From positions 1 through 64,000 of IMG/VR virus record IMGVR_UViG_3300007734_000755: a stretch of DNA of 64,000 nt. The stretch is one strand, 5' to 3'. Positions 835-31,330 of the stretch are shown piece by piece. The translations under genes were made by a program, and so were the position numbers. The stretch comes from a virus. Every line of letters begins with the position of its first letter. The first letter of the stretch is position 1. Under the pieces are notes generated by a model. The model had not been told where the DNA came from, searched no databases, and saw only the letters and a list, made by a program, of their open reading frames with translations.

Positions 835-1975
835 TTTATCATTGGCCATAGATGATGCAACACCAATGACATTATTAGATACGTCTGTTCTCTTAAAGAA
901 CTCCTGAGAGTTATCAACCAAGAACCCTTTGTCCCCGCTGCCAATCACAAACACAAAAGCCCCAATCGCGTATGGCCGAATTTCTTCTAGGAATGTGAGA
1001 GGAACGTTAACACACCCATGAGACATATTGCCTCCCGTAACTTTATTGTAGTTTTTCCGAACAAAATTTAAGTATTCCTTGGAAACGGCCTCTTGCGAAA
1101 CACCAGACTTAATCATCTTTTGGATTCTATCAAAATATTCCCGTCTAACAGGCTCCTGATAAAATCCGTGAATTGCTTGAGCAATGGTTTTATCCCCCAA
1201 CTTCAAATAAAAGACGTTGGCAAGGCTTTTCTTTCCGGCGTAATCTGGATTATAGGTATTTTGAGAAATTGAATAAACTCCCTTGGGTAGGAATCTGGTT
1301 TTGTTCTCGTCGAGATATTTCCAAAAGGTGTCCTCGTCTCTTACTGGGTTTTCATTATTATCATAATAACGACTAACCTTTCTGTGAAAACCAAGCTTTC
1401 TCATTATTTGGTCCGTAGACTGTAGGGCCTTTGCAATCATCTCCTCATTGTTAGATTGCGCGTCCTTTCCGTCTATCATTGGGGACTTGAAGACTTTACC
1501 GTCCTTTGCAAATAAATAAATGAGATTATCTCTAGAATCGAGAATAAAGAAGGATTTGCCGCTATAGGCTGGGCGAGCCTTTATAAAAGCTAATTCTTCT
1601 GCGATCCTGGGAGGGATGTTGTTTGATACCAGCGCTTTTTTTATAGTAGTAGTGGGCGGGAGTTGGAGCTGTGGCGGCTTGTGGTACAACAGGTGTCTTG
1701 GTGGGGACAGAGTTAATCACCTTCTGTGTAGTGTTGTCAATTATTCCGGTGGCCGTAAGCTTTGAGGCTCTCTGAAGATCCGCGATAGCCTTCTTTGTTA
1801 GTGGACCAAACCACCCAGTCGGAGCCCCTATTCTCAGGAACTTCTTGTCAATTAACGCCTTTTGAAGAGCCTTGACTGGCTCACCTCTGTCATTATATTT
1901 GGGAAAGGCGGCGGCCTGCTCGGTCAGGAGGTTCTGCAACTCCTCGAGGATTATTGATTTCAAATTAAGCTTCAT
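808..1975 (-). CDS. peptidoglycan-binding / L,D-transpeptidase (YkuD) protein, frame interrupted
   Basis: The ATG at 1975 has an upstream AGGA. The first part (about 110 aa) has a tag ending LLTEQ and a PG_binding_1 domain (about residues 25-80, with GWFGPLTKKAIADLQ). The second part, in another frame, is a YkuD domain with the catalytic SHGCVN motif and an upstream His. Frame one would run on to a stop at 1562. The frames join if one base is removed from the T7 run (A7 in the mRNA) at 1636-1642. The downstream frame has only a TTG as independent start and no clear RBS. L,D-transpeptidases crosslink or modify peptidoglycan, so a cell-wall role during entry or lysis is plausible. The break may be a sequencing error, slippage or mutation. 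Confidence 0.75.
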
Positions 1976-1985
1976 GTTGGGTTTC

Positions 1986-3042
1986 CTATGCAATAGATTT
2001 GGCTTGCGGCCGGTTAGATTTCACTGTAGATATCATGTCTGGGTAAATAGACTTGTCCCGTAGAGCTTGCTTGAGAACGGACAAGACCCAACCATTTAGA
2101 ACTTTTCCTGATTTGTTGATCTGACTAAGATTATTAAACAAATCATCATAATCCTGTGAGGTGGCATGAGACAGGAGTTTCATAAGATAATCTACGTTTG
2201 AAAGATTGTTTTGCGCTGAGTTGGGAGACAGTCCAATAACATCGCCATATTTCTTTGCTAGAGAGGCATACCAAAATTTAATTGGACGATAATATCTTTG
2301 TTGAGCCTCCTCTCTGGCAAGACAGTAAGCGAAGACCTTGTTTCCTCCACTTCCATATGACAAATTCATTAATATATCATAATCCTTTGGCTCCATTTGT
2401 TTTTTTAGAAGTTTGGCCACAACAATGCCTAGGTCGGAGATCTCCTGATAAATATTCTTGGGGGTCCCAACGGCAAAACTGGGACCAATTTCTCGTCCTC
2501 TCCTCTTGGCAATAAGAGCTTCTGTCTCTGCATTAATTCTAGATTCATTTGGACCATCATTTATCCAATGACCCAATTCGTGGACAATTGTATTTATTGG
2601 GTTAGTTTTTTTTGCGCGGATAAGCCTAAAATCTATAGAGAGTTTATTTTGATAGAACAGCCCATAGTACTTCCCCCTAAGATCAGCACTAAAAATGTTC
2701 AATTTCGTTCCCCCCTTAAGAAGATGGGCCATGGGAGGAAGGACATCCCTTCTTACTAACTGGGCATCTCCGACAACCTTCTTCCACCCACCAGGGAAAT
2801 ATTCTTCTGGATATAATGCATTAAGATAGTCATCCACATCAACCGAGATGGATGAACCAAGAGGCATCAATTCAAGAGACTTAAGCTTGTCCAGTATAGT
2901 CTTGTCGAACGGTATATTAGCGAATAGGCCAAAACTATCCTGCTTTATGTTCTTATTGGGAGCCACAGTGGGAGTTGCATCACCAGGAAGATCAACTTGT
3001 TCTGTAAGGAACCTTTCTCCAACTATTAAGTATGGTATTCAT
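1986..3042 (-). CDS. tagged HExxH metallopeptidase-like protein, frame interrupted near the N-terminus
   Basis: The main frame (1986-2966, GTG start, 326 aa, open upstream to a TGA at 3039-3041) contains HELGHWINDG, a zincin HExxH motif, in its middle. An ATG at 3042 in another frame reads MNTILNSWRK and then stops early. Removing one base around 3008-3020 joins the two as MNTILNSWRRFLTEQ. That matches the tags of the neighbours, so I take 3042 as the original start. The TGA of the upstream 44-aa gene nearly touches this ATG (TGAGATG), suggesting coupling. No wider family is recognised. A proteolytic role is inferred from the motif only. Confidence 0.6.
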
Positions 3043-3043
3043 C

Positions 3044-3178
3044 TCAATAAATAGTCTGTAGTTCTGTTATATCTGGACCTCTATCATCGTATTTAAGCTC
3101 TGTGGAGCCAGAATCATATTGTTCAGCGAGAACCGTTCGTAGTTCCTGGAGAATCATTTCTCTTAGTATATTGTTCAT
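3044..3178 (-). CDS. 44-aa tagged small protein
   Basis: The ATG at 3178 has an AAGGAAA upstream. The first 20 residues end in VLAEQ and match the tag of the flanking proteins (L-x-E before Q). The remaining 24 residues (YDSGSTELKYDD...) are acidic. It could be a complete microprotein or the remnant of a longer gene. Continuation into the next frame was not evident. Confidence 0.5.
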   Translation of the reverse strand: MNNILREMILQELRTVLAEQYDSGSTELKYDDRGPDITELQTIY

Positions 3179-3206
3179 TTATCTTTCCTTTTATATTGGT
3201 GAGTCT

Positions 3207-3605
3207 CTAATCTCGACCCTGAGCATAGGGATCAAATCCACTAGCCTTCAGGAGGGACGCTATATCTCCACCCCTTCCAACTATTGAAAGCATAATACGA
3301 GCATCACCAGCGGTTTCCTTTCCTCCGGCTACTGTCTGTGCTATTCTAGAAACATTATATCTGGTAATCGATGGTATTCTCGACTCGCGAGAATTTTGTA
3401 CATTCTGGAGTAGCTGACGATATAGAGAGGGATCACTCCTTAACTTATCTCCCCAGGCCTTTAGCTCAGCTAGATTTTGTGTATCATCCCTCTCTCGCTG
3501 TGTCGTATTATTTTTGACACCAGGATTATCTCCATCTTCTTGTTCGACTAGAATTTTTTGTAACTCTTCCAATACTAGTTTTCTTATTGCTCTATTATTG
3601 ATCAT
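3207..3605 (-). CDS. 132-aa tagged protein of unknown function
   Basis: The ATG at 3605 is preferred over an upstream TTG because GGAGG lies 10 nt before it. The N-terminus RAIRKLVLEELQKILVEQ is nearly the same as that of the L,D-transpeptidase two genes away. The rest is hydrophilic with no recognised domain. A CTATTTATT motif ends 26 nt upstream of the start. The tag and that motif suggest a late, capsid-associated protein; this is inference. Confidence 0.6.
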   Translation of the reverse strand: MINNRAIRKLVLEELQKILVEQEDGDNPGVKNNTTQRERDDTQNLAELKAWGDKLRSDPSLYRQLLQNVQNSRESRIPSITRYNVSRIAQTVAGGKETAGDARIMLSIVGRGGDIASLLKASGFDPYAQGRD

Positions 3606-3630
3606 GTTCCTATACCCTCCGTTGTGTACC

Positions 3631-3639
3631 AATAAATAG
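3631..3639 (-). promoter_or_regulatory. candidate late-promoter motif CTATTTATT
   Basis: Read on the minus strand this is CTATTTATT, 26 nt upstream of the 3605 start. Near-identical motifs occur upstream of the genes starting at 43161, 50865 and 54448, and another lies at 3046-3054. Confidence 0.4.
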
Positions 3640-4484
3640 GTTATAACTATACAAAAAAACTCAAATCTGTAAAAAATAGCTATCCGTTGAATGAGGACTT
3701 AGTCCATTCCTTCATGCTCATATTATCATACTGTAACATAACTTCCGGGAATTATTACTCGAGGGAGGAGTAGGGGGAGGGGGTATGGTTTCAACGGGTT
3801 GCAAGCGATTGAAACTGTTAGAGAAAAAAGACCTTTGGTTTCGACAGGCATTACTTCGTGCGCCTATTGGTGTATTGTTGTATGGGATAATAACTAATGA
3901 ACCATCGGATTGAATTACTCGTTGTGTGAAGCGGCTGGTATCATTGGAGTATTGATAGTCGTAAACGGCTATACAACTAGCGTGTTGTATTGTGCCCGAC
4001 TATAACCCTATTAGCATAAAGTATCAATCCCTCGCTCTGTATGAGGAGAGAGATATACAATAGCCTATACGCCCAGCCAGGTTACGGGATAGCGTAGTGA
4101 GTACCCATGGTGTACCTGTTGGGGTATTGACCTATGGACATCCAGGTGTTATACTAACCAATCATATCCACTCACAGAGAATATACCTAGCCGTGTATGA
4201 TACTCAGCCCAGCATTGTCGTTGGGTATAGAGTAGTTGCATCAGTAAGTAATGGGGTAGGTATCCAGCGGGTACTGAGTCCACCGGGATGTATTCACTTT
4301 CTCTCTGGTGTCTGATAGAACATTCTTCTACGAATTCCGATAGGTATCATAAAACGCATTGTTCTTCACTATCGGATAGTTGACTCGTTTTCGTCTGGTG
4401 TTAGATAGAACTATACTTGACTGGCTCTATTGAATGACTATATCTATCTGCTAATACTGTGGCATGGTCTTCTTCTCCGCTTAT
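3640..4484 (-). ncRNA. candidate large structured noncoding RNA
   Basis: No convincing gene lies in this stretch on either strand. A strong leftward promoter at 4491-4519 would start a transcript near 4484. Paired segments include ATAGTCG 3955-3961 with CGACTAT 3997-4003, an inner TATACAAC 3970-3977 with GTTGTAT 3984-3990, ATTGATA 3951-3957 with TATCAAT 4022-4028, and CCGATAG 4337-4343 with CTATCGG near 4369-4375. An imperfect direct repeat (TCTGGTGTnnGATAGAAC) occurs near 4309-4327 and 4398-4415. The size is in the range of ornate phage RNAs such as GOLLD, but I cannot assign a family. The 3' end is unknown. Confidence 0.4.
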
Positions 4485-4490
4485 GGTTCA

Positions 4491-4519
4491 ATGATATCAG
4501 GTAGTAGGTTTGTTGTCAA
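4491..4519 (-). promoter_or_regulatory. sigma70-like promoter into the gene-free region
   Basis: On the minus strand TTGACA (4519-4514) and TATCAT (4496-4491) are separated by 17 bp. It fires left into 850 bp without genes, the main reason to suspect an RNA product there. Confidence 0.6.
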
Positions 4520-4760
4520 CCATGCGTTTTATTGCATTTTTTAACGATTTTACAGGTAAAATAATATTGGACTAAGTTGGCTGTTTATCTACCTATTTCC
4601 TCTCCACTATTATGTCCGTTCTACACCGACAATAAAGCAGACAATCAAGGACTTCCCTATTACACCCATACCTCCTCTCGCTAACCTACCGACTGCATTG
4701 TCTTAAGTCGTTTATACCACTGGTATAATACACTCTATTATGACTATATTGGGGTTGGGA

Positions 4761-4910
4761 TTATTCCTCTCCATCCAACCAGTTATACCAACCAATCATA
4801 AGGGAAAGGATTGTTAGGAGTATAAGACTAACCTGATGTTCCACCATAAGGATTGTTAGTGTCCATACCATGTAGATTACAATGGCTAAGCCCAGATGGT
4901 TATGATTCAT
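4761..4910 (-). CDS. 49-aa membrane microprotein
   Basis: ATG at 4910, TAA at 4761. The protein has two hydrophobic stretches (residues about 6-21 and 28-41) and a short acidic end. Its start overlaps the stop of the 27-aa gene upstream (ATGA), so it is probably translationally coupled. It is one of three consecutive small membrane genes. Function unknown. Confidence 0.5.
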   Translation of the reverse strand: MNHNHLGLAIVIYMVWTLTILMVEHQVSLILLTILSLMIGWYNWLDGEE

Positions 4911-4990
4911 TTACGAGTTATTACTTCTAGGAATCCCGTTGTTGCAATGAGGAGTAGATACATAACTCTATTGTCACTGAGATTACCCAT
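4907..4990 (-). CDS. 27-aa membrane microprotein
   Basis: ATG at 4990, TGA overlapping the next ATG by four bases. Residues 10-24 form a single hydrophobic segment. It is very short, so support comes mainly from the coupled overlap and from matching membrane-type neighbours on both sides. Confidence 0.4.
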   Translation of the reverse strand: MGNLSDNRVMYLLLIATTGFLEVITRK

Positions 4991-4993
4991 ACT

Positions 4994-5227
4994 CTATCTT
5001 CTCCCGCCAAATAATACTCCGTGAAACCACCCACCTATTCTATTAATTAGAAAGAATAGATATAGGGGGAATATCATGGGCCATAACATGGCGTCAATAG
5101 TGGCATTTATATTTGCCTGTTCTCTACCGAAGTTATCCCCTGCCGCACGGAGTCTTATCTCATAGGAGATAACATAGGTTATCATGGCCACTATTGGGTA
5201 TGATAGTGTGAGTAGGAAGGATAACAT
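4994..5227 (-). CDS. small protein with two membrane segments
   Basis: The 77-aa protein has hydrophobic segments at about 2-20 and 48-63, separated by a hydrophilic loop. The C-terminus is glycine- and arginine-rich. It heads a run of three small membrane genes. No family is recognised. Confidence 0.6.
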   Translation of the reverse strand: MLSFLLTLSYPIVAMITYVISYEIRLRAAGDNFGREQANINATIDAMLWPMIFPLYLFFLINRIGGWFHGVLFGGRR

Positions 5228-5244
5228 GGAGTCTCTCCTAGTCT

Positions 5245-5478
5245 CTAACTGTCCAGAATGGATAATGCGTTAGAGATATAAATAGGTTCGAGTGCTCCTG
5301 TTTTCCTTAGCTTATTTGCGAATCTACAGGCTGCGACTTCACTGTAGAATATCCCATGGATACCGTCGTTGCCAGCGACATTGATGGGGCCGAATACAAT
5401 ATAGACTTCCCTAGGTTCGTCCTCACCATCAAACCATCTGATTAGATTGGTAAACTTCTCTACAAGGTAATTCCACAT
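5245..5478 (-). CDS. 77-aa protein of unknown function
   Basis: ATG at 5478 (MWNYLVEKF) is preceded by AGAGGAA. The middle (EVYIVFGPIN...GIFYSEVAACRFANKL) resembles the gene at 6302-6511 (GVFSDRDTATRFASML). The two are probably paralogues of a small alpha/beta phage protein. Function unknown. Confidence 0.6.
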   Translation of the reverse strand: MWNYLVEKFTNLIRWFDGEDEPREVYIVFGPINVAGNDGIHGIFYSEVAACRFANKLRKTGALEPIYISNALSILDS

Positions 5479-5480
5479 TA

Positions 5481-5696
5481 TTATTCCTCTACTTCCCATG
5501 GGAAATAGTGAGGGTAATCATTGAACTGATCGCCCTCGGCAATACAAACAGAATCATAGATGTTTGTTCCCTGCATGTAGGTTGCGATATCCACGGCTGT
5601 TTGTCTATCCGTGCAACCACCTGCCCACGTTGTATGACCCTGAATGGTTGCAAGAACTGTCCAGTAATTCTGGACTGTTGTTGAAGACCGCGACAT
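5481..5696 (-). CDS. 71-aa protein of unknown function
   Basis: The start at 5696 (MSRSSTTVQNYW) shares a base with the stop of the upstream gene (TAATG). Residues in the middle (CTDRQTAVDIATYMQG) resemble the pattern of the small paralogues at 5245 and 6302. Function unknown. Confidence 0.55.
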   Translation of the reverse strand: MSRSSTTVQNYWTVLATIQGHTTWAGGCTDRQTAVDIATYMQGTNIYDSVCIAEGDQFNDYPHYFPWEVEE

Positions 5697-6046
5697 TATT
5701 CCACCATTCCTTCCTGTTCGCATTCCGCTCTATCTGCGTCACGAGAACAGCCGCAGGTTTCGCAAGTTCCACCACAGGTGCTAAACTGTTGAGATTCCCC
5801 AGACTCTTCAAATGCGGAGAATTCCGCTCTAATTTGTTCTAGGAGATATGCCTCTAGTTGAGGCTCAAGCCCAAATTCTTGAGCCACAAGCCATACAGCC
5901 TCGGTATCAACGAAGAATTGATCATCAATTCCAAGCTGTTCATCCACGGTAGCATCTACCGATTCATCCATATATCTTTTTGCCAAATCCTTCAAATCTC
6001 TAGCCAGTAATTCTACCCGTTCCTTCGTATCCCGAACTTCTTCCAT
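5696..6046 (-). CDS. acidic protein with a C-terminal cysteine cluster
   Basis: The 116-aa protein is acidic and largely helical. It ends with five cysteines (CGGTCETCGCSRDADRAEC), possibly a metal site. A strong promoter at 6076-6104 lies just upstream. No family is recognised. Confidence 0.6.
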   Translation of the reverse strand: MEEVRDTKERVELLARDLKDLAKRYMDESVDATVDEQLGIDDQFFVDTEAVWLVAQEFGLEPQLEAYLLEQIRAEFSAFEESGESQQFSTCGGTCETCGCSRDADRAECEQEGMVE

Positions 6047-6075
6047 GATTTTCCTCCGTTGTGATTGGTGAGCTA

Positions 6076-8120: not shown

Positions 8121-8191
8121 CTCTCCCAAGTAGAATCGAACTACTATCATGCGGTTAACAGCCGCGCGCTCTACCATTGAGCTATAGGAGA
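8121..8191 (-). tRNA. tRNA-Asn (GTT)
   Basis: The acceptor TCTCCTA pairs with TGGGAGA. The anticodon arm is GCGG-CTGTTAA-CCGC and the T-loop is TTCGATT. A promoter lies about 100 nt upstream. Confidence 0.9.
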
Positions 8192-8291
8192 AAATACTTG
8201 TCAACAGCAGGACTTACACAGTTCCAGCTAACCATCCGAAACTAGCGCCTAATACCAGTGGGTTCGTGGTTGCTGTTGCTCAAGTTGGATA

Positions 8292-8320
8292 ACTATAGCA
8301 GAGACAAGGATTTATGTCAA
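8292..8320 (-). promoter_or_regulatory. sigma70-like promoter for tRNA-Asn
   Basis: TTGACA (8320-8315) and TATAGT (8297-8292) are spaced by 17 bp on the minus strand, upstream of the tRNA at 8191. Confidence 0.7.
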
Positions 8321-8343
8321 TCATGCCATAGATTATGGATTTG

Positions 8344-8523
8344 TTAGGGTTTAGCTTCCGCAAGCATGGGTACAACTAATGACATTTCCTCAATGTCGAA
8401 GTGATCATAATCGTTAGAAGTGTACAAGTTACCAATTTCATTTTCGGCGTCTATCCGTGAAGTGAAAACCTTGCGACTTGCAAGGTGTCTCCCCCATCTA
8501 TCGACAATAATATAGCAAGTCAT
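8344..8523 (-). CDS. 59-aa protein of unknown function
   Basis: ATG at 8523, next to the stop of the upstream gene; TAA at 8344. It begins MTCYIIVDRWGRHLASRKVF and looks like the same small-protein type as the genes at 5245 and 6302 (a beta strand, then an Arg/Asp/Ala helix). Confidence 0.5.
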   Translation of the reverse strand: MTCYIIVDRWGRHLASRKVFTSRIDAENEIGNLYTSNDYDHFDIEEMSLVVPMLAEAKP

Positions 8524-8742
8524 TTATCTCTCCTCGTCGTTGTTATCGTTGATAATGTGGTAGATTTCGTTCTTAATCACAGTCTCCCAGAGAATATTAA
8601 GAATGAATAGGCAAACGTAGCCTGCGCCGAGATAGCGATAGAAGTCAGGGAACCGCTGATTCATCCATCCGTAGAGAAGAATATTAACAACGCAGCCAAC
8701 AAAGAGACAGCAAACGATATTCACAACTCTTAGAAACTTCAT
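8524..8742 (-). CDS. 72-aa membrane protein
   Basis: Hydrophobic segments lie at about 5-26 and 38-56. The C-terminal tail is acidic. Stop and start sites are packed against both neighbours. Function unknown. Confidence 0.6.
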   Translation of the reverse strand: MKFLRVVNIVCCLFVGCVVNILLYGWMNQRFPDFYRYLGAGYVCLFILNILWETVIKNEIYHIINDNNDEER

Positions 8743-8744
8743 AT

Positions 8745-8969
8745 CTAACCGCCCTCGGCCATACAGGCTCTAAGTCGGGCCATTGCCAAACTAATGGCCT
8801 GACCCTCAGTAAACGTGCTAAGCATTATGTTTCCAGTCGATTCAGTTGGCCCCTCGATAACATACTTGATTTGCCCGAGAAACTTGGTTTCTGTCACCGT
8901 AACCGCGCCCTTATAGGATAAACTCCTGAAAATCTCTCGCCTTTCGCAGGTGCAATCGCGCATACACAT
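8745..8969 (-). CDS. 74-aa protein of unknown function
   Basis: It begins MCMRDCTCERREIFRSL with three N-terminal cysteines and continues as a beta-rich domain with a final helix (GQAISLAMARLRACMAEGG). No family is recognised. Confidence 0.5.
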   Translation of the reverse strand: MCMRDCTCERREIFRSLSYKGAVTVTETKFLGQIKYVIEGPTESTGNIMLSTFTEGQAISLAMARLRACMAEGG

Positions 8970-8987
8970 ATTTCACCTCAGTTATTG

Positions 8988-9077
8988 TCAATTGTATTGG
9001 GCACGCCAAGCACAACCACCTAGAATCTTTCGCTTCTTAGCAGTCAGAACCCACTGTTTCTTGTTCCGCTTAATCAT
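8988..9077 (-). CDS. 29-aa basic microprotein
   Basis: ATG at 9077 after a GGTGA, TGA at 8988. The sequence MIKRNKKQWVLTAKKRKILG is strongly basic. It fills the gap between two real genes, but its length makes the call uncertain. Confidence 0.35.
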   Translation of the reverse strand: MIKRNKKQWVLTAKKRKILGGCAWRAQYN

Positions 9078-9097
9078 ATTTCACCTTATTTGTTGTT

Positions 9098-9418
9098 CTA
9101 TTTCCGCCAGATTTTTTTCCAATGTTCATGCCAAGTTTTACCACGGAAGCCCATTTCGTTTGAGCCATCCTGTTCAAGTGGTTCAACCCAAAGGTGTTTC
9201 CCGTCCTTGGGAAATGTCCAAACGTCGGATGCTTCTCGAAGCAGAGGCAATTCCGCTTGAAGTTCAAGAAGTTCCGATTCATCGCGGGTTTTTGCCATAG
9301 ATTTCAACTGGTTCTTGACCCGTTTTCGCAGAGAACGATTAGCCTTTGTCTTTCCGGGTTTATCCGACATGCTACAGGAATTTCCTGTGATTGGAATCTT
9401 CTTGCGACTTCTGCTCAT
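9098..9418 (-). CDS. 106-aa basic phage protein
   Basis: The start at 9418 (MSRSRKKIPITG) is chosen over an upstream ATG because the SRSRKK start is typical of a widespread small phage family. The first half is basic (KANRSLRKRVKNQL). The second half has many Trp and ends KTWHEHWKKIWRK. It probably binds nucleic acid; function unknown. Confidence 0.6.
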   Translation of the reverse strand: MSRSRKKIPITGNSCSMSDKPGKTKANRSLRKRVKNQLKSMAKTRDESELLELQAELPLLREASDVWTFPKDGKHLWVEPLEQDGSNEMGFRGKTWHEHWKKIWRK

Positions 9419-9443
9419 TTCAACTTCTCCTATACAGTAACTA

Positions 9444-9530
9444 TTACAACCATTTGTGAACCGCAACCGAAAGAGCTGCAATCAAAGGGAGTAAGCATAT
9501 CGAACCAAACATCATGTCGTTTGCAGACAT
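9444..9530 (-). CDS. 28-aa membrane microprotein
   Basis: ATG at 9530 has a good AAGAGG 5 nt upstream. A single hydrophobic stretch spans residues 8-23. It is very short, and the ribosome site is the main support. Confidence 0.4.
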   Translation of the reverse strand: MSANDMMFGSICLLPLIAALSVAVHKWL

Positions 9531-9582
9531 AGGAACCTCTTAATTTTATTGTTGTGTGTTGTTGTGGAAATCTAACTGATTC

Positions 9583-9786
9583 CTATCGGGAAATTCTCAC
9601 CGAGCAAACAGCATCAATGTCAAAGCCAATGGGTTTGCGCGACTGAAGTCTTTTCAACTCCTCGCGTTCTTGTCTCTTTTCCTCAATGGAATTCTTCGCA
9701 TGTTGGCTAATAGCCTGTGACCATTCAGAAACTTCCTTCTTGATAAAACTCGTACCCTTACGGAGGGGATTAAAACCAATAGCCAT
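9583..9786 (-). CDS. 67-aa helical protein
   Basis: It is mostly a charged helix (KNSIEEKRQEREELKRLQSR) and ends VCSVRISR. No family is recognised. Confidence 0.5.
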   Translation of the reverse strand: MAIGFNPLRKGTSFIKKEVSEWSQAISQHAKNSIEEKRQEREELKRLQSRKPIGFDIDAVCSVRISR

Positions 9787-9799
9787 TTGAAACCTCTCG

Positions 9800-10030
9800 T
9801 TAATTCAGTAAGTTAGCCGAGTAGAGAATTTCTCCACAGACACCCTCAGTTAGCTTAACACTACCCTGCGAGACAAGGCTAAGAATGCCAAAGCAAAATT
9901 GTAATTCCTGGGTAGTCTTGGCATTCAATGTTTCCTTGGTCAATCGTGCATACAGTACATCGTGAGCCGAGTACCATAACGTGGGGGACAATTCGTTCTC
10001 GAGCAATGTATCTTCGATTGTATTGGGCAT
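9800..10030 (-). CDS. 76-aa protein of unknown function
   Basis: It is an alpha-helical acidic protein with no recognised domain. It lies between the 9583 gene and tRNA-Met. Confidence 0.5.
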   Translation of the reverse strand: MPNTIEDTLLENELSPTLWYSAHDVLYARLTKETLNAKTTQELQFCFGILSLVSQGSVKLTEGVCGEILYSANLLN

Positions 10031-10055
10031 GACATTCTCCTTTTGTTTCTATTAG

Positions 10056-10130
10056 TTGCGGAAGCAGGATTTGAACCTGCGACCTCTTGGTTATGAGCCA
10101 AGCGAGCTGACCTTACTGCTCTATCCCGCA
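10056..10130 (-). tRNA. tRNA-Met (CAT)
   Basis: The acceptor TGCGGGA pairs with TTCCGCA. The anticodon arm is CTTGG-CTCATAA-CCAAG and the T-loop is TTCAAAT. The D-arm resembles initiator tRNA, but the GGG/CCC anticodon-stem pairs and the C1-A72 mismatch are absent. I call it Met without choosing; a lysidine-modified Ile tRNA is also possible. Confidence 0.85.
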
Positions 10131-10303
10131 ATCGTATCTCTGTGTAACTACTATCGTTAGTGCCTATTTTCCTTAAGTAAATACTTCCACCTACTAAATA
10201 AGCAAACTCGGCTGGCCCCTAGCCTTTCTATTCATTCAACGGACGAGAACCATGAGGATTAGGCTAACAACCCAATGGACGATAACTCGTTGAAACGATT
10301 AGT

Positions 10304-10381
10304 CGCGCCAATCGGATTTGCACCGACATCTTGAAGCTGGTATTGCTTCACGTTTTACTTTGTGTAGTTAAACTATGGCAC
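10304..10381 (-). tRNA. tRNA-like gene, anticodon not assignable
   Basis: The acceptor GTGCCAT pairs mostly with TTGGCGC. A D-arm-like AGTTTAA and a T-arm with loop TGCAAAT are present. The anticodon stem GAAGC/GCTTC encloses AATACCA, which lacks the U33 of normal tRNAs. It may be a degenerate tRNA. Confidence 0.4.
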
Positions 10382-10384
10382 AGG

Positions 10385-10453
10385 TGGAATTTACGGGAAT
10401 CGAACCCGTCCGGTCAGCTATATCAGCTGGAGCCTTTATCCATGAGAATCCCA
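10385..10453 (-). tRNA. tRNA-like gene, abnormal anticodon arm
   Basis: The T-arm ACGGG-TTCGATT-CCCGT and a pairing acceptor (GGGATT with AATTCC) are clear. The anticodon region is the hairpin CAGCT-GATAT-AGCTG with a five-base loop, and the D-arm is poor. GAT would read Ile codons if it serves as anticodon, but this cannot be decided. Confidence 0.45.
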
Positions 10454-10458
10454 TAAGT

Positions 10459-10860
10459 TTATTGTTCTGTAAGTTCGTTAACTTCCTCGAAGGAAACTCC
10501 CTCGGAATAGTAACCGTTGCTTTCACCCTTCCAGCGAATATCAACATAGCCCTTTTGAGTCGCAAACTTGTAGAATGTCCACGTTTGGCTTCGATAATCG
10601 GTTTCGGATTTATTCGTGGAGACCTCTGCGAGACAGATTGGCGAATTCACTAGGAATTCCAATTCACCCTCGATTTCCGTAATGTTTACCGACTCGCAAC
10701 AGTCTTGAATATGACCCATGCGATACGTCTGGCCGGATTCCGTAATGAACTCAATGATATCGTCACCGTCGCTAACACCACGTTGGCAAAAGGCCAGGAC
10801 TTGACCAAGAAGTTCGCCAACATCGGCGTGACGATTAAGGCCATTGTAATTATACTTCAT
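10459..10860 (-). CDS. DUF7448-like phage protein
   Basis: The 133-aa protein has the family pattern YRMGHIQDCCESV, then AEV and SQTWTFYKFATQKGYVDIRW and GESNGYYSEGV. This small domain is common in phages and of unknown function. The 3' end lies next to a tRNA-like gene. Confidence 0.7.
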   Translation of the reverse strand: MKYNYNGLNRHADVGELLGQVLAFCQRGVSDGDDIIEFITESGQTYRMGHIQDCCESVNITEIEGELEFLVNSPICLAEVSTNKSETDYRSQTWTFYKFATQKGYVDIRWKGESNGYYSEGVSFEEVNELTEQ

Positions 10861-11041
10861 TCTTAACTCCTTGTTTCTGTTTGGAAACTGGCGGAGTTAA
10901 CCGCATCAGTATTTTATATTGTTCTCGCTGACTTAGATAACATGGCCCCTTAATAGCTAGGGACGAAAGTGACGCACAAGCCGCGCACTTATATAAGCCA
11001 ATACGACCGTATTGCATCCAGAAGTGCTGTTGAATGTTCAT
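10850..11041 (-). CDS. 63-aa protein with a Cys pair
   Basis: It begins MNIQQHFWMQYGRIGLYKCA and contains CAAC, so it may bind a metal. It overlaps the start of the next gene by 11 nt. Function unknown. Confidence 0.5.
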   Translation of the reverse strand: MNIQQHFWMQYGRIGLYKCAACASLSSLAIKGPCYLSQREQYKILMRLTPPVSKQKQGVKNEV

Positions 11042-11073
11042 CTTTTCCTCAAACGTTATTAATATTGATTTAG

Positions 11074-11158
11074 TGAGGGAAGTTAGATTCGAACTAACTC
11101 CGTTTCATTGTAACGGTTTTACAGACCGCTGCTATTCCACCATCATAGCCGTTCCCTC
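11074..11158 (-). tRNA. tRNA-Tyr (GTA)
   Basis: This 85-nt class II tRNA has acceptor GAGGGAA with TTCCCTC, anticodon arm CGGT-CTGTAAA-ACCG, a long variable arm and T-loop TTCGAAT. Confidence 0.9.
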
Positions 11159-11160
11159 AG

Positions 11161-11690
11161 AATTATGTGTTACTTAGCCTTAAACAACCTACCACTTAGG
11201 TTGCAGATTTTTCACTGTCGCAGCATAATCTGCGGCCCATTCGGGAGCTTGCGCCGGAATTCACTACTATTCCCCGACCTTGTGCCAACATCACTCGGCT
11301 TCTCATCATGCCATTGGGAGCACTATCCGCTAATAACGGAACGTTCATTGATTCTGTGGTTCCGTTTATTCCCGGTCTGGGACATAACGGTTTCCGCAAA
11401 AGGAGCCTAACCATGGGCTACTTCGTGGCGGCTGTGGTATTGTGCTCAAACCCACGAAGCATAGTCGACAATATAATACTGTCGGGTGTGCGCCAATCAC
11501 CACATATTTACCGATGCAACACCACTTGCTAACGCCTCGGAAGTGCGGAGTATTCTAATAAATCCAGTCTACTCTTAGGATAGACCCTTTATCCAAGCAT
11601 CATGTTACACCCAACACGAAAAGCGCCCGCATACCACGGTCTTGGCTTATCGGCCCGATAAGCAAGGGGTTCTAAGCAGTTAAATCTGCT
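11161..11690 (-). ncRNA. candidate structured RNA between tRNA genes
   Basis: There are 530 bp without a convincing gene on either strand, but with many pairing segments. Examples are AACGGAAC with GTTCCGTT near 11334-11366, CTTCGTGG with CCACGAAG near 11420-11458, CGACA with TGTCG near 11467-11484, and a near-perfect GCTTATCGG/CGATAAGC hairpin near 11645-11663. Large ornate phage RNAs (GOLLD, ROOL) are known to sit beside tRNA genes. I cannot assign this one to either. It is probably co-transcribed with the flanking tRNAs from the promoters at 13.1-13.45 kb. Confidence 0.35.
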
Positions 11691-11692
11691 GG

Positions 11693-11765
11693 TTCTACAA
11701 GGGAGAGTTGAACTCCCATTTCCCCGCTACAATGCGAGGGTTCTAACCCATTGAACTATTGTAGA
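11693..11765 (-). tRNA. tRNA-Thr (TGT), six-base anticodon loop
   Basis: The acceptor TCTACAA pairs with TTGTAGA and is followed by A and an encoded CCA. The D-arm and the T-arm (GGGAG-TTCAACT-CTCCC) are normal. The anticodon arm is CCTCGC-ATTGTA-GCGGGG: six pairs and only six loop bases. U33 and TGT fall in their usual places, so one base on the 3' side of the loop is missing. Confidence 0.7.
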
Positions 11766-11906
11766 TTTAACCACTCGGTCTTGTTCACTGGCCGATAAGA
11801 GACTGCACTTACAATGGGTTTGCAACAGACCCGATTAACTCGATTATGCAAACAGCCCACAACCCTTGCAGATTGCAGGCTATTTCCATTCCATCCACGC
11901 TAGGGA

Positions 11907-12731
11907 TTACTCGGCGTCGTCACACACCGGGCAATCCTCAGGAACTTCAGCTGTTTCCGGCTCGGCCTCTTGCGCCTCAACGTCCAGACCATCGGCGGAA
12001 TCCTCAGGCTCATCATTGGCTTTCGCCACACCGACCGCCTCAACCGCAGCGGCAAACGCTTCTGCGAGTTCGGCATTCTCCGCCCGGAGCTTGCGAATCA
12101 AGTCCAGCAGTTCCGCCTTCGTGAGCTTATCCTCACTCTTACCACCGTTTTGGACGAACTCGGCATACGCCTGCTTATTCAGCAGGTTGCCCTCGGCATC
12201 GCATTCACACGCGAGCTTGAGCTTGCTTGGGCGACCAGCGCCGAATTCAGTAACCACACCGTCTTGTAGGAACGTGCGCTTGACCTTGATAACTTTCGCC
12301 TTAGTAACAGTAGCCATTTTATCACCCTTCACTTTGTTATTGTTGTTGTTTTTGATAGTAGCAGCAGAGACTTCCTTAGTCTTTTCAGCGGTCTCTGCCT
12401 TGCGCTGAAATTCATTGCTGACTTCTTGACCGATACCAATGATTTCATTGGCATCCGCCTCGTTCGTAATGCGGAACACGGTAGTTCCGTCAACCAGTTG
12501 CAGTTGACCCACAACCTTGCGGAATCGCAGGTTATGCAACATCGTATTGGCCTTGCCAATCGCCCTCGACATATCGCCATTAACCATCAGGACAATGGCC
12601 TTGCTCGCCGCGACCTTATCTGCCGTCATGCCGTTCTTGGCATCCTTGAGAGTTTCCAGCACCTTACCGTAAGCGACCATATCGCTCCGACCGTAGACCC
12701 ATTTGCCGATTTGCACGTTGTTGCTTGCCAT
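11907..12731 (-). CDS. 274-aa protein of unknown function
   Basis: The N-terminal half (residues 1-110) contains a region like a small regulatory or DNA-associated domain (GRSDMVAYGKVLETLKDAKN). An Asn-rich linker follows near 125-131. The C-terminal part has basic strands, a coiled helix and an acidic tail ending CPVCDDAE. It follows the tandem promoters with only tRNA-Arg between, so it is probably strongly expressed early. No family is recognised. Confidence 0.65.
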   Translation of the reverse strand: MASNNVQIGKWVYGRSDMVAYGKVLETLKDAKNGMTADKVAASKAIVLMVNGDMSRAIGKANTMLHNLRFRKVVGQLQLVDGTTVFRITNEADANEIIGIGQEVSNEFQRKAETAEKTKEVSAATIKNNNNNKVKGDKMATVTKAKVIKVKRTFLQDGVVTEFGAGRPSKLKLACECDAEGNLLNKQAYAEFVQNGGKSEDKLTKAELLDLIRKLRAENAELAEAFAAAVEAVGVAKANDEPEDSADGLDVEAQEAEPETAEVPEDCPVCDDAE

Positions 12732-12789
12732 GTTAGTCTCCGTAGTTCCGTTTGTTGTTTGTTGATACTTGAATTATTCTTTACTTTGG

Positions 12790-12863
12790 CCTGCTTGGCA
12801 GGACTTGAACCTGCAACCCTCGGCTTAGAAGGCCGATGCTCTATCCAGTTGAGCTACAAGCAG
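12790..12863 (-). tRNA. tRNA-Arg (TCT)
   Basis: The acceptor CTGCTTG pairs with CAAGCAG. The anticodon arm is TCGGC-CTTCTAA-GCCGA. The discriminator G is followed by an encoded CCA at 12787-12789. It is the first RNA gene after the tandem promoters. Confidence 0.92.
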
Positions 12864-13076
12864 ATTTCCTTATTCACACTGTACTAATAGTCTCTCATTA
12901 TGCCACCTCGTTCGGTTTCCCGACTTCGACTTCACTTGAGGTATTAGTACCTTGATTGCATGATGGTTCGTTTCTAGCCCCTTGCGGCGGTAGGCAACCA
13001 TTCATTCTTGCAGAGAACGCAGTTCTCACAATCGTATTCAATTATCAAAGTTCTTGTGGCTCTCGACCACTTCGGT

Positions 13077-13105
13077 AGCTTACCACCGTTTTTTCTGCTT
13101 GTCAA
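13077..13105 (-). promoter_or_regulatory. leftward promoter a of the tandem set
   Basis: TTGACA (13105-13100) and TAAGCT (13082-13077), 17-bp spacer on the minus strand. The spacer shares AAAAAACGGTGG with promoters b and d. It has the weakest -10 of the four. Confidence 0.55.
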
Positions 13106-13155
13106 CCCCTCATTTCATTCAGCTTCTTGAGAAGCCGTTTTCATTGAGAGATTTC

Positions 13156-13224
13156 AGGGACTTTGCAGAACCGCTTGAGTTCTGCTGACTGCCCCAGTGT
13201 ACCACCGTTTTTTACCCTTGTCAA
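13156..13224 (-). repeat. promoter-hairpin repeat, copy b
   Basis: TTGACA (13224-13219) and TACACT (13201-13196) with a 17-bp spacer. The transcript would begin almost at the hairpin GCAGAAC (13165-13171) with GTTCTGC (13179-13185). The core CTTTGCAGAACCGCTTGAG is shared with copies c and d. Confidence 0.7.
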
Positions 13225-13272
13225 CCCCTCATTTCATTGAGTTTCTTGACTTTGTTGGTTTTTTCCGGGAGA

Positions 13273-13336
13273 CCTTGCAGAACCGCTTGAGTTCTGCTGA
13301 CTGCCCCAGTGTAACCTACTTTGGGTCGAGTGTCAA
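13273..13336 (-). repeat. promoter-hairpin repeat, copy c
   Basis: TTGACA (13336-13331) and TACACT (13313-13308), 17-bp spacer. The spacer differs completely from copies b and d, while the -10, start region and hairpin are kept. Selection therefore acts on the promoter boxes and the 5' hairpin. Confidence 0.7.
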
Positions 13337-13388
13337 GAGCTGTTTTTATTGGCTTCTTGATAATCATTCGGCTTCTTTTTTTTCTTGG

Positions 13389-13453
13389 ACTTTGCAGAAC
13401 CGCTTAAGTTCTGCTGACTGCCCCAGTGTACCACCGTTTTTTACCCTTGTCAA
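13389..13453 (-). repeat. promoter-hairpin repeat, copy d
   Basis: TTGACA (13453-13448) and TACACT (13430-13425), 17-bp spacer nearly the same as in copy b. The hairpin is kept, with one change in its loop (CGCTTAA). Confidence 0.7.
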
Positions 13454-13784
13454 CAGCTGATTTTATTGGCCTTTGACAAGTAGCAGGAACGGCTAAAGAA
13501 TTCTAAAAGCGGAATTAGACTGGCGCGAAGCCTGTCTCGATTTCCAAGAGCATCTTAGCACGTTCAGCAGAGAAGTCAAGTTGGTTGAAATCATTGAGGA
13601 AGGGTGAGAACTCCAACCTGTTGAATCTATTGGGAAAACTCTCAACTGGCTGATAGTTCGTTCCGAGGGCAAACTCCCAACGGATTCAGTCACTTCCAAA
13701 TGCGACTTTCATATCCACTATGAATGCAACTCTGGAGGCAAGTCGTGTAATTTATTGGGCTTCTCGATGAGAGTCGGCAGACCC

Positions 13785-13814
13785 TTGACAAGGAATCTAC
13801 CTGTGTGCTATAAT
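13785..13814 (+). promoter_or_regulatory. perfect-consensus rightward promoter
   Basis: TTGACA (13785-13790), an 18-bp spacer, and TATAAT (13809-13814) preceded by TGC, an extended -10. It points against all nearby genes, so its product should be an RNA rather than a protein. Confidence 0.75.
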
Positions 13815-13820
13815 CAAAGG

Positions 13821-13895
13821 TAAGTCGAAACGAGATTCGTCTAAGTCCATGATTTCATTGAGGATTGCAACTCTTGATTATTGAAGAGTTTCTTG
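13821..13895 (+). ncRNA. candidate small RNA
   Basis: The transcript from the 13785 promoter would reach a hairpin ACTCTT/AAGAGT (13870-13890) followed by TTTCTTGC, a weak intrinsic-terminator shape. No reading frame with a ribosome site is seen. The length would be about 75 nt. Read-through would run antisense to the gene at 13990. Confidence 0.5.
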
Positions 13896-13989
13896 CGGCC
13901 CGCTGATTTTGTGAGGTATTTCTAACTCGTTGAAAACACTGGTCTCTTCTAAGTCGCTGATTTTTCTATCATTCTAAATCATTGAGCTT

Positions 13990-22799: not shown

Positions 22800-23255
22800 T
22801 TAAACTTCCCAGGGTTTCGGCTCAAAGGAGCCGGAATCCATCATATGGATAATTTGCTCCAGTCGTTCTCTTTCCCGTACCAGAGATCTCATAACCAACT
22901 TCTTTTGTTTCGAAAGCTTCATCCACCACTCAGGTTGATGTTCCTCAACAAGAGTCTTAATTGCGTTCTGTTGGATATCCTCAATCACCTGACGATAAAC
23001 TCCCTTCTCTGCCGAGTTCCGCTCAACAGAGCGAAGAAACGTCCGCTTATTCATTCTACCCTCAGAAATAAGTCTGCCGGTCTTCTTAACAAACCGCTCC
23101 TGAGGAGCCGAGAATGCCCCGCCAAACTCATAGGAAATCTTATCCTCATCGCTCTTTACCACTCGAAACGCTACGGTGATATGGGCATTTGAGCCCGGCC
23201 AAAAGGCATCTCTAACATAATAAAACTTTGTACCTGAATCCCAACTCTTAGTCAT
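22800..23255 (-). CDS. 151-aa basic protein of unknown function
   Basis: The start at 23255 (MTKSWDSGTKFYY) has an AAGG 9 nt upstream. A beta-rich first half (ITVAFRVVKSDEDKISYEF) precedes helical basic segments. No family is recognised. Confidence 0.6.
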   Translation of the reverse strand: MTKSWDSGTKFYYVRDAFWPGSNAHITVAFRVVKSDEDKISYEFGGAFSAPQERFVKKTGRLISEGRMNKRTFLRSVERNSAEKGVYRQVIEDIQQNAIKTLVEEHQPEWWMKLSKQKKLVMRSLVRERERLEQIIHMMDSGSFEPKPWEV

Positions 23256-23380
23256 CTTTACCATCCTTCTTATGTGCCGTAGCACGTTGTTTATTTTATC
23301 ATACACACTAAGTCATTATACTTGATAATCTTCTCGCACATGAAAGATTTCCTAATTCTGTTAGGAATTTTTAATTCTTT

Positions 23381-23707
23381 TCACAACTCCACCCAAAAGC
23401 GTAAATCAGCAGCATGTTCTGTTAAGATTTGCTTGATTTCATCATCAGATTTATCAGCAAGTTCTATCGTATCCTCGTCGGTTAGCCAAAATTCTTTGAA
23501 TAACAGAAGCTCTTCTTTAGAAGAGACTTCTTCTTCTTCTGGCCAATAAACAAACACCACATTATAGTCAAGACAATTGTGTTTTCTAATAGCTTTCCAC
23601 AACCTATCTCTATTAAACTCCTGAGGATATTTCTCCTCAAGAAATTCAACACAGCTCCTATAATCATAGGTGTTATTTAACACAACAGTATATTCCGGCT
23701 TATTCAT
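23381..23707 (-). CDS. 108-aa acidic protein
   Basis: It is acidic, with helical segments and VVFVYWPEEEE in the middle. No family is recognised. Confidence 0.55.
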   Translation of the reverse strand: MNKPEYTVVLNNTYDYRSCVEFLEEKYPQEFNRDRLWKAIRKHNCLDYNVVFVYWPEEEEVSSKEELLLFKEFWLTDEDTIELADKSDDEIKQILTEHAADLRFWVEL

Positions 23708-23761
23708 TTTATTCCTTATATTCCTTATATTCCTTATTTATTTTTCTTTTACTTCACGCAG

Positions 23762-23833
23762 AGCGGATAACAGGAATTGAACCTGCGTATAAGAGGTTGG
23801 AAACCTCCCGCGTTACCACTACGCTATATCCGC
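23762..23833 (-). tRNA. tRNA-Gly (TCC)
   Basis: The acceptor GCGGATA pairs with TATCCGC in antiparallel fashion with one wobble (TTATCCGC side). The anticodon arm is GGAGG-TTTCCAA-CCTCT and the T-loop is TTCAATT. Confidence 0.9.
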
Positions 23834-23855
23834 CTATCTACTTGGCTACCTCTCT

Positions 23856-23884
23856 AGTATAGGTCACTAGGTCATTTGTGTCAA
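23856..23884 (-). promoter_or_regulatory. sigma70-like promoter for tRNA-Gly
   Basis: TTGACA (23884-23879) and TATACT (23861-23856), 17-bp spacer, 23 bp upstream of the tRNA. Confidence 0.7.
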
Positions 23885-23893
23885 CTTCGATTG

Positions 23894-24391
23894 TTATCTT
23901 TTCCCACCCTGGATTACTCTAAAATTTCTTCGTCGAGCTTCCGGAGTCAAATTCTTCTTTGGCTGTTCGGTTTCTTTTAGCTCACCTTGATCTGTGACGA
24001 TTTGATTCTTGGCATCTCCAATTGCATAGACCGCACTCCAAGGGATAACACACCGGAAAGGCCTTCCTCTAAAGGAGAGGGTTGCGACTACCTGCTTATC
24101 ATCGAATTCGAAATCGGCTATATTGTATCGATAAGAGAAAGATAACACAAGAGATTGTTGATTCTTACAATCGTCGGGAACACAAACTCCGTCAACTCTA
24201 GCATCGAAATGCAGATGCGCTATTCCTTCTCTTAGGAAGAACTCAAAAAGCTTTCGCTTCTCAAGGTTGGTTGCATCTGTATCTTCCACTGAGTGGGTTT
24301 CCATCCCCGCTAAAATAGCGTTAAGCCTCGAGTAAGTAACAAGACCTAGAAAATTTGCTAATTTCTCAAATATTTCCTTAAGATTTCTCAT
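23894..24391 (-). CDS. SspB-like ClpXP adaptor
   Basis: The 165-aa protein matches the SspB pattern over residues about 48-130: a helix LFEFFLREGIAHLHFDARVD, VCVPDD, LVLSFSYRY, VATLSFRGRPFRCVIPWSAV and YAIGD. It ends NFRVIQGGKR after a flexible linker, like the ClpX-binding tail (LRVVK) of SspB. SspB tethers ssrA-tagged proteins to ClpXP. A phage copy could redirect or block host proteolysis. The family call is by pattern; the role is inference. Confidence 0.7.
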   Translation of the reverse strand: MRNLKEIFEKLANFLGLVTYSRLNAILAGMETHSVEDTDATNLEKRKLFEFFLREGIAHLHFDARVDGVCVPDDCKNQQSLVLSFSYRYNIADFEFDDKQVVATLSFRGRPFRCVIPWSAVYAIGDAKNQIVTDQGELKETEQPKKNLTPEARRRNFRVIQGGKR

Positions 24392-24950
24392 TTTTCTCTC
24401 CGAGAGAAGCGATTAATTCCTCAAAAGTTCTTGGCCTAAAATCTCTTACATCAACTCCAACATTGATAAACCTTTTTCTAGCACAAAAGGCATCGTGTTT
24501 TTCCTTGTGGTCACTTCTATCGTCTGCCGGGATAACATCCCCGACATTCTTTTCCGCCCAGGCATCGTGAACGTGGCCACAAAACACAAAATCAGTTTCG
24601 CTATTAGCGTGTGATGGATTGTGGACAAGTTCAATACTTTTTCCACCAATCTCTAAAATCTTGTTGGGCAATACAGTTTCAAACGATTCAAGACACTTCT
24701 TGTGGTCGTGATTTCCTCTAATAAGGATTAGAGTCCCGTTAAGCCTAGATAGGATTCCCGAAATCTTTGTTCTATCTCCCATAGCAAAATCACCAAGGTG
24801 ATAAACTGTATCCTCTGGCGAGACAATTTCATTCCAATTCTTAATTAGAATCTCGTTCATGTGACTGATTGAGTCAAAGGGACGCTTACAATATACAATG
24901 ATATTGTCGTGGTTGAAGTGGGTATCGCTTGTGAAGAATGTCTTGCTCAT
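24378..24950 (-). CDS. calcineurin-like metallophosphoesterase
   Basis: The 190-aa enzyme has all core metal motifs: SDTHFNHDNI, GDFAMGD, GNHDH, HNPSH and CGHVHD. It resembles the short phage/YfcE-type phosphoesterases. The substrate is unknown; nucleotide or RNA phosphoester cleavage is possible. It overlaps the SspB-like gene by 14 nt. Confidence 0.8.
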   Translation of the reverse strand: MSKTFFTSDTHFNHDNIIVYCKRPFDSISHMNEILIKNWNEIVSPEDTVYHLGDFAMGDRTKISGILSRLNGTLILIRGNHDHKKCLESFETVLPNKILEIGGKSIELVHNPSHANSETDFVFCGHVHDAWAEKNVGDVIPADDRSDHKEKHDAFCARKRFINVGVDVRDFRPRTFEELIASLGEKNEKS

Positions 24951-25111
24951 CTATTGCAACTCGTTGAGTAAATTATTTGTTCCATCATTCTGTTCTGCCT
25001 CTCCAGAGACTTGATTCTACTAGTGTGATCGATTCCTGTCAAGAAGAGCGATGTCAGCAGAAACATTAAAGACAGGAACAAAAATACAATTAAGGCTCTG
25101 TCGCGTTTCAT
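24947..25111 (-). CDS. 54-aa single-span membrane protein
   Basis: The start MKRDRALIVFLFL (25111) is followed by one hydrophobic segment to about residue 25, then a polar helix (SLERQNRMMEQII). It is ATGA-coupled to the phosphoesterase. The spanin-like layout is noted but not enough for a call. Confidence 0.55.
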   Translation of the reverse strand: MKRDRALIVFLFLSLMFLLTSLFLTGIDHTSRIKSLERQNRMMEQIIYSTSCNR

Positions 25112-25118
25112 AATAACA

Positions 25119-25475
25119 CTATTTCCTGGCGCTGTCAACCAGCACAATAAGTCTGTTTTTTAGATCCTGAAGCTCCTTCAACCCAAAGGTTCCTGGGTTT
25201 CCCTCGCTACCCTCTGCTCTGTCTAGAATTTCATTAAGAGCCTTTACTGTTGAAAGGACTCCGGCATCATTTCCTCTCCACCAAGCCGCATGAGCAAAAT
25301 CGGTTCCATCGTAAAAAGGATCGTCATCAAGACGGGCGCAACTGCGCTCCGCGCATAGCTTTTTGCTGCTCCACGAATCGCAATGATGACAGAAAAAATC
25401 ACTGCTTCTAAGTTCAGTATCACGAGTTTCCTTCCCACAGACATCACACACACAAATATTTATTGAATCTTTCAT
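25119..25475 (-). CDS. 118-aa zinc-finger phage protein
   Basis: CVCDVCGKET and CHHC near the N-terminus form a zinc site. The C-terminal part AWWRGNDAGVLSTVKALNE...FGLKELQDLKNRL is a recurring phage motif of unknown function. Confidence 0.6.
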   Translation of the reverse strand: MKDSINICVCDVCGKETRDTELRSSDFFCHHCDSWSSKKLCAERSCARLDDDPFYDGTDFAHAAWWRGNDAGVLSTVKALNEILDRAEGSEGNPGTFGLKELQDLKNRLIVLVDSARK

Positions 25476-25795
25476 TTTTTTTCCCGTTCATTATTAATAA
25501 GAGAGAAACATTGTGCTGTTACGCCAAAATGTCGGGTAGCCTTCGGTCACAAGTGACTTTCTCTGACACGGCAAGCCCTGGTTAATTCCCGGGTTCTTAC
25601 TGCCTCTCAGCGGATAATATCCGTCGTCTCGACCCGTCAAGTCTGTCCATTAACTAATGGAGTTAGCAAACAAATAAGGTCTTTCATACAGCCTCAAGAA
25701 ACACTTGTTATCCAACTGTATTACTATTCAAAACGGATTCTGGAACATACTCATTATAGGATGGCTGCCTCTAAGCCCACCTCTTGGTTCTCTCG
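25476..25795 (-). ncRNA. gene-free stretch with 23S-rRNA-like hairpin
   Basis: No gene is visible in 320 bp. The minus strand of 25759-25778 reads GGGCTTAGAGGCAGCCATCC, which matches 17 of 18 bases of the L11-binding hairpin of 23S rRNA (GGCUUAGAAGCAGCCAUC). Further small hairpins occur: GTCAC/GTGAC near 25546, CGGATA/TATCCG near 25612 and CCATTA/TAATGG near 25648. A structured RNA is possible. Confidence 0.35.
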
Positions 25796-26253: not shown

Positions 26254-26291
26254 GTTCTCCTCACATAAAAAATGTTAATCTATATTCTTGG

Positions 26292-31312: not shown

Positions 31313-31330
31313 TTTCTTGTCTATGTCCAC

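Follow-up and report, generated by a model that had tools for sequence, protein, structure and literature searches.

The gene-free region and its surroundings

The window analysed in this work is a stretch of 64,000 nucleotides, which comprises the first 64 kb of a tailed phage record of 114,837 bp whose gene content includes a DnaE-type DNA polymerase, GroEL, RNA ligase, terminase and portal. The minus strand is the coding strand for almost all genes of this record, and a peptidase M54-like gene at 157-834 (PF07998, E 1.7e-6) is among its very few genes on the plus strand. Fifteen tRNAs are distributed across 7567-33217, and the one nearest to the region described below, a tRNA-Phe at 7567, is located about 3 kb from it. 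No tmRNA gene was found within the 64-kb window, and genes of this kind are present in three relatives (viz. G002, L072 7969-8327; G006, L073 13847-14209; and G007, L078 19205-19563).

A gene-free gap, whose features are summarized in Table 1, lies between the early small-gene/tRNA region on one side and the first late cargo gene on the other. On the late side of this gap (1562-3632, minus strand), otherwise unrelated genes have in common a short N-terminal motif, e.g. MKQILTEWRKYVNE or LKSIILEELQNLLTEQ, which is reminiscent of the capsid-targeting sequences of internal virion proteins, and gene clusters with the same motif are seen in G007 (22934-25524), G013 (from 9370) and G014 (8191-11912).

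Table 1. Features of the proposed early-late junction and its flanking genes in the window.
Positions	Strand	Feature	Remarks
3207..3632	-	First late gene; N-terminus resembles those of the virion cargo genes nearby	ATG at ~3606
3631..3640	-	Late-promoter-like CTATTTAT	Upstream of first late gene
3633..4993	-	Gene-free junction, from early small-gene/tRNA region to first late cargo gene	Longest non-coding gap of the 114.8-kb record
3652..3669	-	Conserved T-rich block CAGATTTGAGTTTTTTTG	Just upstream of late promoter; CAGATTTGGG also in G013
3735..3748	-	Conserved block CCGGAAGTTATGTT	
3761..3838	-	C-rich, G-poor 78-nt tract, rut-like	C 32, G 7 (C/G 4.6)
3772..3783	-	CCCCCTCCCCCT tract	Identical in G007; followed in both by 30 nt and then TTATGTT
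4304..4321	-	Direct repeat copy 2, 18 nt, GTTCTATCAGACACCAGA	
4349..4670	-	Promoter-proximal segment, weakly colinear with G007 26266-25870	nhmmer, local alignment
4394..4411	-	Direct repeat copy 1, 18 nt, GTTCTATCTAACACCAGA	90 nt from copy 2
4491..4519	-	Sigma70-type promoter, TTGACA-N17-TATCAT, extended TG	11/12 consensus positions
4994..5227	-	Plausible 77-aa, membrane-like gene, last on the upstream (early) side	AGGAG site

Relatives of this phage were recruited via its DNA polymerase, and of the 33 records obtained one showed 94% identity, six were near 77% and the others were in the 40-60% range. The junction is covered in only two of these 33 records, viz. G007, whose DNA polymerase is 77% identical, and, more distantly, G013, while G002, G005 and G006 stop short of it. 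Queries with the immediate neighbour genes of the gap revealed no new relatives, and two scans of GTDB genomes also found none.

An earlier note on this DNA, made from the sequence alone, described the stretch 3640-4484 as free of genes. This description holds, and the gap is in fact longer. When all ORFs of the record were scored based on codon usage, none with a positive coding score was found in 3633-4760, the ORFs inside the gap scoring -2 to -9, and the ORF at 4761-4910(-) showed a weak score of +2.3 and lacked a Shine-Dalgarno sequence. Conserved open frames in relatives, which would have contradicted the earlier note, were likewise not seen, as no ORF of the gap is conserved in the syntenic gap of G007 (25525-26335), which is also located between the early small-gene/tRNA region and the virion cargo gene cluster. 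Direct blastn of the gap stretch against 50,697 phages gave a single 30-nt chance match, and except at the junction of G007 no sequence common to this gap and other large gaps was found. Small or decayed genes could still be hidden here, as there are a few ORFs of 31-72 aa in the gap and an open minus frame of 114 codons in G007. However, the coding scores are negative, the ORFs of the two gaps are dissimilar except over a conserved DNA element (see below), and the largest ORF of the gap (4097-4315 +, 72 aa) has no match in tblastn searches against the 50,697 phages, so we regard this explanation as highly improbable.

The sigma70-type promoter and the 5' part of the gap

The promoter that the earlier note placed at 4491-4519 is also borne out, and the start of RNA predicted from it is near 4484. 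Genome-wide, the exact pattern TTGACA-N16-18-TATNAT occurs six times on the coding strand versus 0.2 times in shuffles, and once on the other strand, which indicates that the promoter at 4519-4491 is part of a real promoter set. In the gap of G007, the coding strand carries TTGACA-N17-TATTAT at 26152-26124, which is followed by 600 nt of gene-free sequence. Because a credible promoter here fires into about 0.85 kb of untranslated DNA, it is likely that an untranslated RNA is made from it, and the gap is probably transcribed. Promoters on the opposite strand were also observed: a weaker one in this record (window 4127-4155) and, in G007, a strong TTGACA-N17/18-TATAAT-like promoter at 25848-25876 (L078 5848-5876, +), which is convergent with the coding-strand promoter of that gap.

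The segment around the promoter (4349-4670) shows weak similarity to the syntenic place in G007, which was its sole non-self match by nhmmer (E 0.037) and which in local alignment gave a score of 29 versus 17.1 +/- 2.3 for shuffles (0/300). This similarity spans the promoter and the first repeat module, whereas most of the middle of the gap is not conserved. Two pairs of direct repeats (4304-4321/4394-4411 and 4148-4166/4782-4800), which the earlier note does not mention, are above the level expected by chance in shuffles, and the copy at 4394-4411 has a weak match at the syntenic place in G007. The repeat TCTGGTGTTAGATAG also matches G007 at 26321; this match is inverted and was considered fortuitous. 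In addition, a unique perfect 17-bp palindrome, TTATACCACTGGTATAA, is present at 4712-4728, and this palindrome and the pairs of direct repeats are possible operator sites.

A conserved block that ends at a putative late promoter

The ~170 bp that directly precede the late genes have a homologous counterpart at the same place in G007 (local score 44 versus 10.6 +/- 1.8; 0/300 shuffles), with strong conservation of both sequence and spacing. Within this region, conserved elements follow each other in the order CCCCCTCCCCCT-N30-TTATGTT-N65-CAGATTTGANYTTTTTTG-N12-CTATTTA, with spacings in the window and G007 of 30, then 65/64, and then 12 nt, and the last of these elements corresponds to the late-promoter-like motif ACTATTTAT. 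This motif recurs in the gaps of G000 (this record), G001, G002, G006, G007 and G013, where it stands 24-33 nt ahead of many start codons; a further example in this record is at 3046-3053. Such a distance would be expected if a -10-like element were followed by a ribosome-binding site. Based on the fixed distance of this motif from the starts, the conserved 3' block appears to end in the first late promoter.

The pattern CAGATTT-N14-44-CTATTTA occurs at five sites in 30 related records, versus none for a reversed-pattern control, and three of these five sites are the junctions of G000, G007 and G013. A profile of the 3' block searched by nhmmer against 1.29 Mb of DNA revealed no other clear site; its remaining matches had E values of 3.9-9.1, and one of them (E 7.5) is the junction of G013. 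Degenerate scans of a viral collection for the 3' element recovered G007 only, other matches being without context, and blastn did not find the block in the phage collection; neither the block nor the late motif was found described in a limited search of the literature. Three elements precede the first cargo gene of G013 (9370), viz. CTATTTAT, CAGATTTGGG and a terminator of the intrinsic type (GCCAGC..GCTGGCTTTTTT). G014 has a hairpin resembling a terminator just before the late promoter of a cargo gene. As a separate observation, the CCCCCTCCCCCT tract is also present upstream of genes in the unrelated phages L131, L133, L135, L137 and L138, and in L133 and L137 it is ~80 nt before a gene that reads like terminase; this tract may be a wider signal.

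Is the gap a large structured RNA?

The earlier note proposed a candidate large non-coding RNA with many complementary segments, of a size like that of GOLLD and ROOL. Such segments do exist, but their number does not exceed what is expected by chance. The 845-nt predicted transcript has a fold z of -1.0, with 12 of 60 shuffles folding equally well, and length-matched coding controls gave values from +0.4 to -5.4; in sliding 120-nt windows the mean fold z is -0.25 versus -0.51 for the coding controls; and 12-nt long inverted repeats number 3 versus 1.8 expected. A nested closing stem built from long-range inverted repeats was dropped, as it is at the shuffle level. The stem at 3951-4028 is locally good (z -3.1; 2/500), yet it is the best among many windows, and the stem at 4337-4375 has a z of -2.0. 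However, this fold test has low sensitivity, the tmRNA genes of relatives scoring just -1.4 to -3.7, and due to this its results should be read as giving no support for structure and not as proof against it. For the conserved 3' part, the alignment of G007 with the window folds worse than shuffled columns (alifold z +1.1; two sequences), which indicates that this part is conserved as sequence, and no covariation was seen in it, the only conserved part, again with two sequences.

The Infernal search with the GOLLD, ROOL and HEARO models suggested by the earlier note was carried out by cmscan with the Rfam 15 library, for the window at the gathering score and for 3400-5300 at E<=10, and none of these three RNAs was matched. 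The sole Rfam matches were chance ones to a CRISPR-repeat and a miRNA model, far under the cut-offs, and tRNA and tmRNA were detected by the same program. Searches for GOLLD RNA (RF02032) and ROOL RNA (RF03087) in six related records gave no match, and the control genomes gave none either. A giant structured RNA of the GOLLD/ROOL type is not supported by these results.

A different possibility is that the promoter at 4519-4491 gives rise to a large non-coding RNA of a new family, which has a conserved 3' end and a 5' domain that evolves rapidly, and which acts as RNA. This would agree with the presence in two relatives of an own promoter with a perfect -35 box and a 17-bp spacer, with the lack of any ORF in the stretch, with the tRNA genes nearby (tRNA-Phe at 7567), as for GOLLD/ROOL, and with the two repeat modules 90 nt apart, one of which is weakly recognisable in G007; GOLLD likewise has a conserved 3' and a less conserved 5' region (PMC12286853). 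However, with no excess structure, no consensus structure in the conserved 3' part, no Rfam match and most of the middle not conserved, we consider such a family unlikely.

The C-rich tract and a possible role of Rho

The tract at 3761-3838 is the top 78-nt window of the entire record for C minus G on the transcribed strand, and in 200-nt windows the junction again ranks first. The junction of G007 holds the top 400-nt C-over-G window of that record, and in G013 the highest-ranking C-over-G windows fall in the 1 kb preceding the first late cargo gene, partly inside a gene. A Rho utilisation site has been described as a ribosome-free stretch of 78 nt with C/G > 1, i.e. 70-80 nt of C-rich, G-poor untranslated RNA (PMC6407284), and the tract at 3761-3838 answers this description in its length, C/G ratio, paucity of G and lack of translation. 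As C/G > 1 is a permissive threshold, which 22-23% of windows pass, the argument here is based on the rank of the tract and not on the threshold. A hairpin, GAATGGACTAAGTCCTCATTC (near 3690-3712), and T-runs are present within 150 nt downstream of the tract (read by eye) and are candidate pause sites. Terminator prediction gave no intrinsic terminator for the minus strand.

The G/C tract of G013 that lies closest before the late promoter is reversed, reading GGGGAGGGGAGGG on the coding strand, which would be a better fit to a DNA element than to an RNA rut site, and a role at the DNA level should therefore be considered. The gap could be a replication origin or a packaging or recombination site, in which a polypurine/polypyrimidine tract and the spaced blocks act as duplex or as G-rich single strand and the promoter opens or primes the DNA. 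The conservation of sequence with fixed spacing, and not of structure, is consistent with this explanation, as are the GGGGGAGGGGG tract and a comparable G-rich tract that G013 carries on the opposite strand, the convergent promoter in G007 (25848-25876), and the palindrome and repeats in G000. However, none of five records shows a switch in GC skew at the junction, the large terminase gene is distant (109658-111241 of the record, the contig being incomplete), and the blocks end exactly at the late promoter, which an origin or packaging site would not need. An element of this kind is thus improbable in our view.

The gap as a possible early-to-late transcription junction

At its 3' end, the gap passes through a conserved, C-rich tract to a late promoter, and this points to a boundary of transcription. 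We think that there is about an even chance that the gap represents the early-to-late transcription junction of this tailed phage; the transcription, termination, involvement of Rho and timing that this entails are inferred from features of the sequence. A host-type (sigma70) RNA polymerase would arrive from the early operon or start at the promoter within the gap (4519-4491), and would make an untranslated minus-strand RNA of roughly 0.7-0.85 kb. Rho would then load on the C tract (3761-3838) and stop transcription within ~150 nt, so that the C-rich, G-poor tract and the T-rich blocks would halt early transcription, most likely through Rho. This stop would keep early transcription out of the virion genes, and the late genes would start afresh from the putative late promoter CTATTTAT (3631-3640). 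Strong similarity at the junction is seen in one relative only (G007). Further, as a terminator does not need 850 bp, the 5' 650 nt and their own promoter are left outside this account, together with the repeats (4304/4394, 4148/4782) and the 17-bp palindrome (4712-4728).

Another account would be that a new phage non-coding RNA marks the early/late switch, in which a fast-evolving 5' domain with duplicated, 90-nt-spaced modules is followed by a C-rich 3' domain of conserved sequence. Through this 3' domain, Rho or another host factor would be recruited and early transcription shut off as late transcription begins; we hold this to be rather doubtful. Alternatively, the gap could be a leader controlled by antitermination, similar to the lambda pR'-6S RNA, where the late genes are transcribed from a sigma70 promoter only if a phage factor enables the polymerase to pass a terminator. 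The constitutive-looking promoter, the untranslated leader and the stop-like element directly upstream of the late genes would all fit with this. However, both the late genes at the junction and those further downstream possess a late-promoter-like motif of their own, and this alternative appears quite improbable.

Further upstream, a second conserved gene-free segment (12732-13989, minus strand) resembles the leader of a ribosomal RNA operon and is also found in G007 (31046-32183) and G006 (4787-6060). In the window it contains four tandem promoters (TTGACA from 13453, 13336, 13224 and 13105), which are followed by copies of the hairpin GCAGAAC-N7-GTTCTGC and then by a boxA-like CTTTGATAATTGAATA at 13050-13035, before a tRNA-Arg; the similarity between relatives persists when the tRNA is masked (z 10-19). 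By analogy, this segment resembles a phage rrn-like antitermination leader.

If the early-to-late junction is correctly interpreted, the candidate giant RNA is replaced by a testable regulatory element, i.e. a conserved ~170-bp block which would mark where early and late genes meet in an uncultivated group of phages, together with the late motif ACTATTTAT. If Rho indeed acts as supposed, then the host Rho would be the wall between the early and late genes in these phages, and the upstream rRNA-like leader with its boxA-like site may let early transcription resist Rho until this wall is reached.

Comparison with known systems

The gap resembles GOLLD and ROOL in its size, its phage origin and its tRNA-gene neighbourhood, which is a loose feature, and it also resembles GOLLD in having a conserved 3' and a variable 5' part (PMC12286853). 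However, it differs from them in showing no model match, no excess structure and, in the two sequences aligned, no covariation, and in that the late promoter abuts the conserved 3' part; as this part adjoins a promoter and has no detectable structure, we do not assign the gap to GOLLD, ROOL or HEARO. With the lambda pR' leader/6S RNA it has in common a promoter, an untranslated leader and a (here predicted) terminator before the late genes, but the late genes in this phage appear to have their own promoters and the leader is ~4 times longer. The likeness to Rho-dependent terminators (rut sites) lies in the 78-nt C-rich, G-poor, untranslated tract with a hairpin and T-rich sites, as putative pause sites, within 150 nt downstream, whereas the nearly invariant CCCCCTCCCCCT and its fixed spacing to the downstream blocks make this candidate more rigid than an ordinary rut site.

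Early/late junctions as such are ordinary in kind, and it is this particular conserved block that was not found in the phage collection searched. The T4-type early/late boundary of tailed phages is formed by terminators and phage late promoters, the late motif of T4 being TATAAATA. Similar to this arrangement, the phage described here combines promoters of the host type on its early side with a late motif that is short, AT-rich and close to the late starts, and with putative stop signals in between. However, its late motif is ACTATTTAT in place of that of T4, and its boundary includes 0.8-1.4 kb of gene-free DNA and an unusual, C-rich conserved block.
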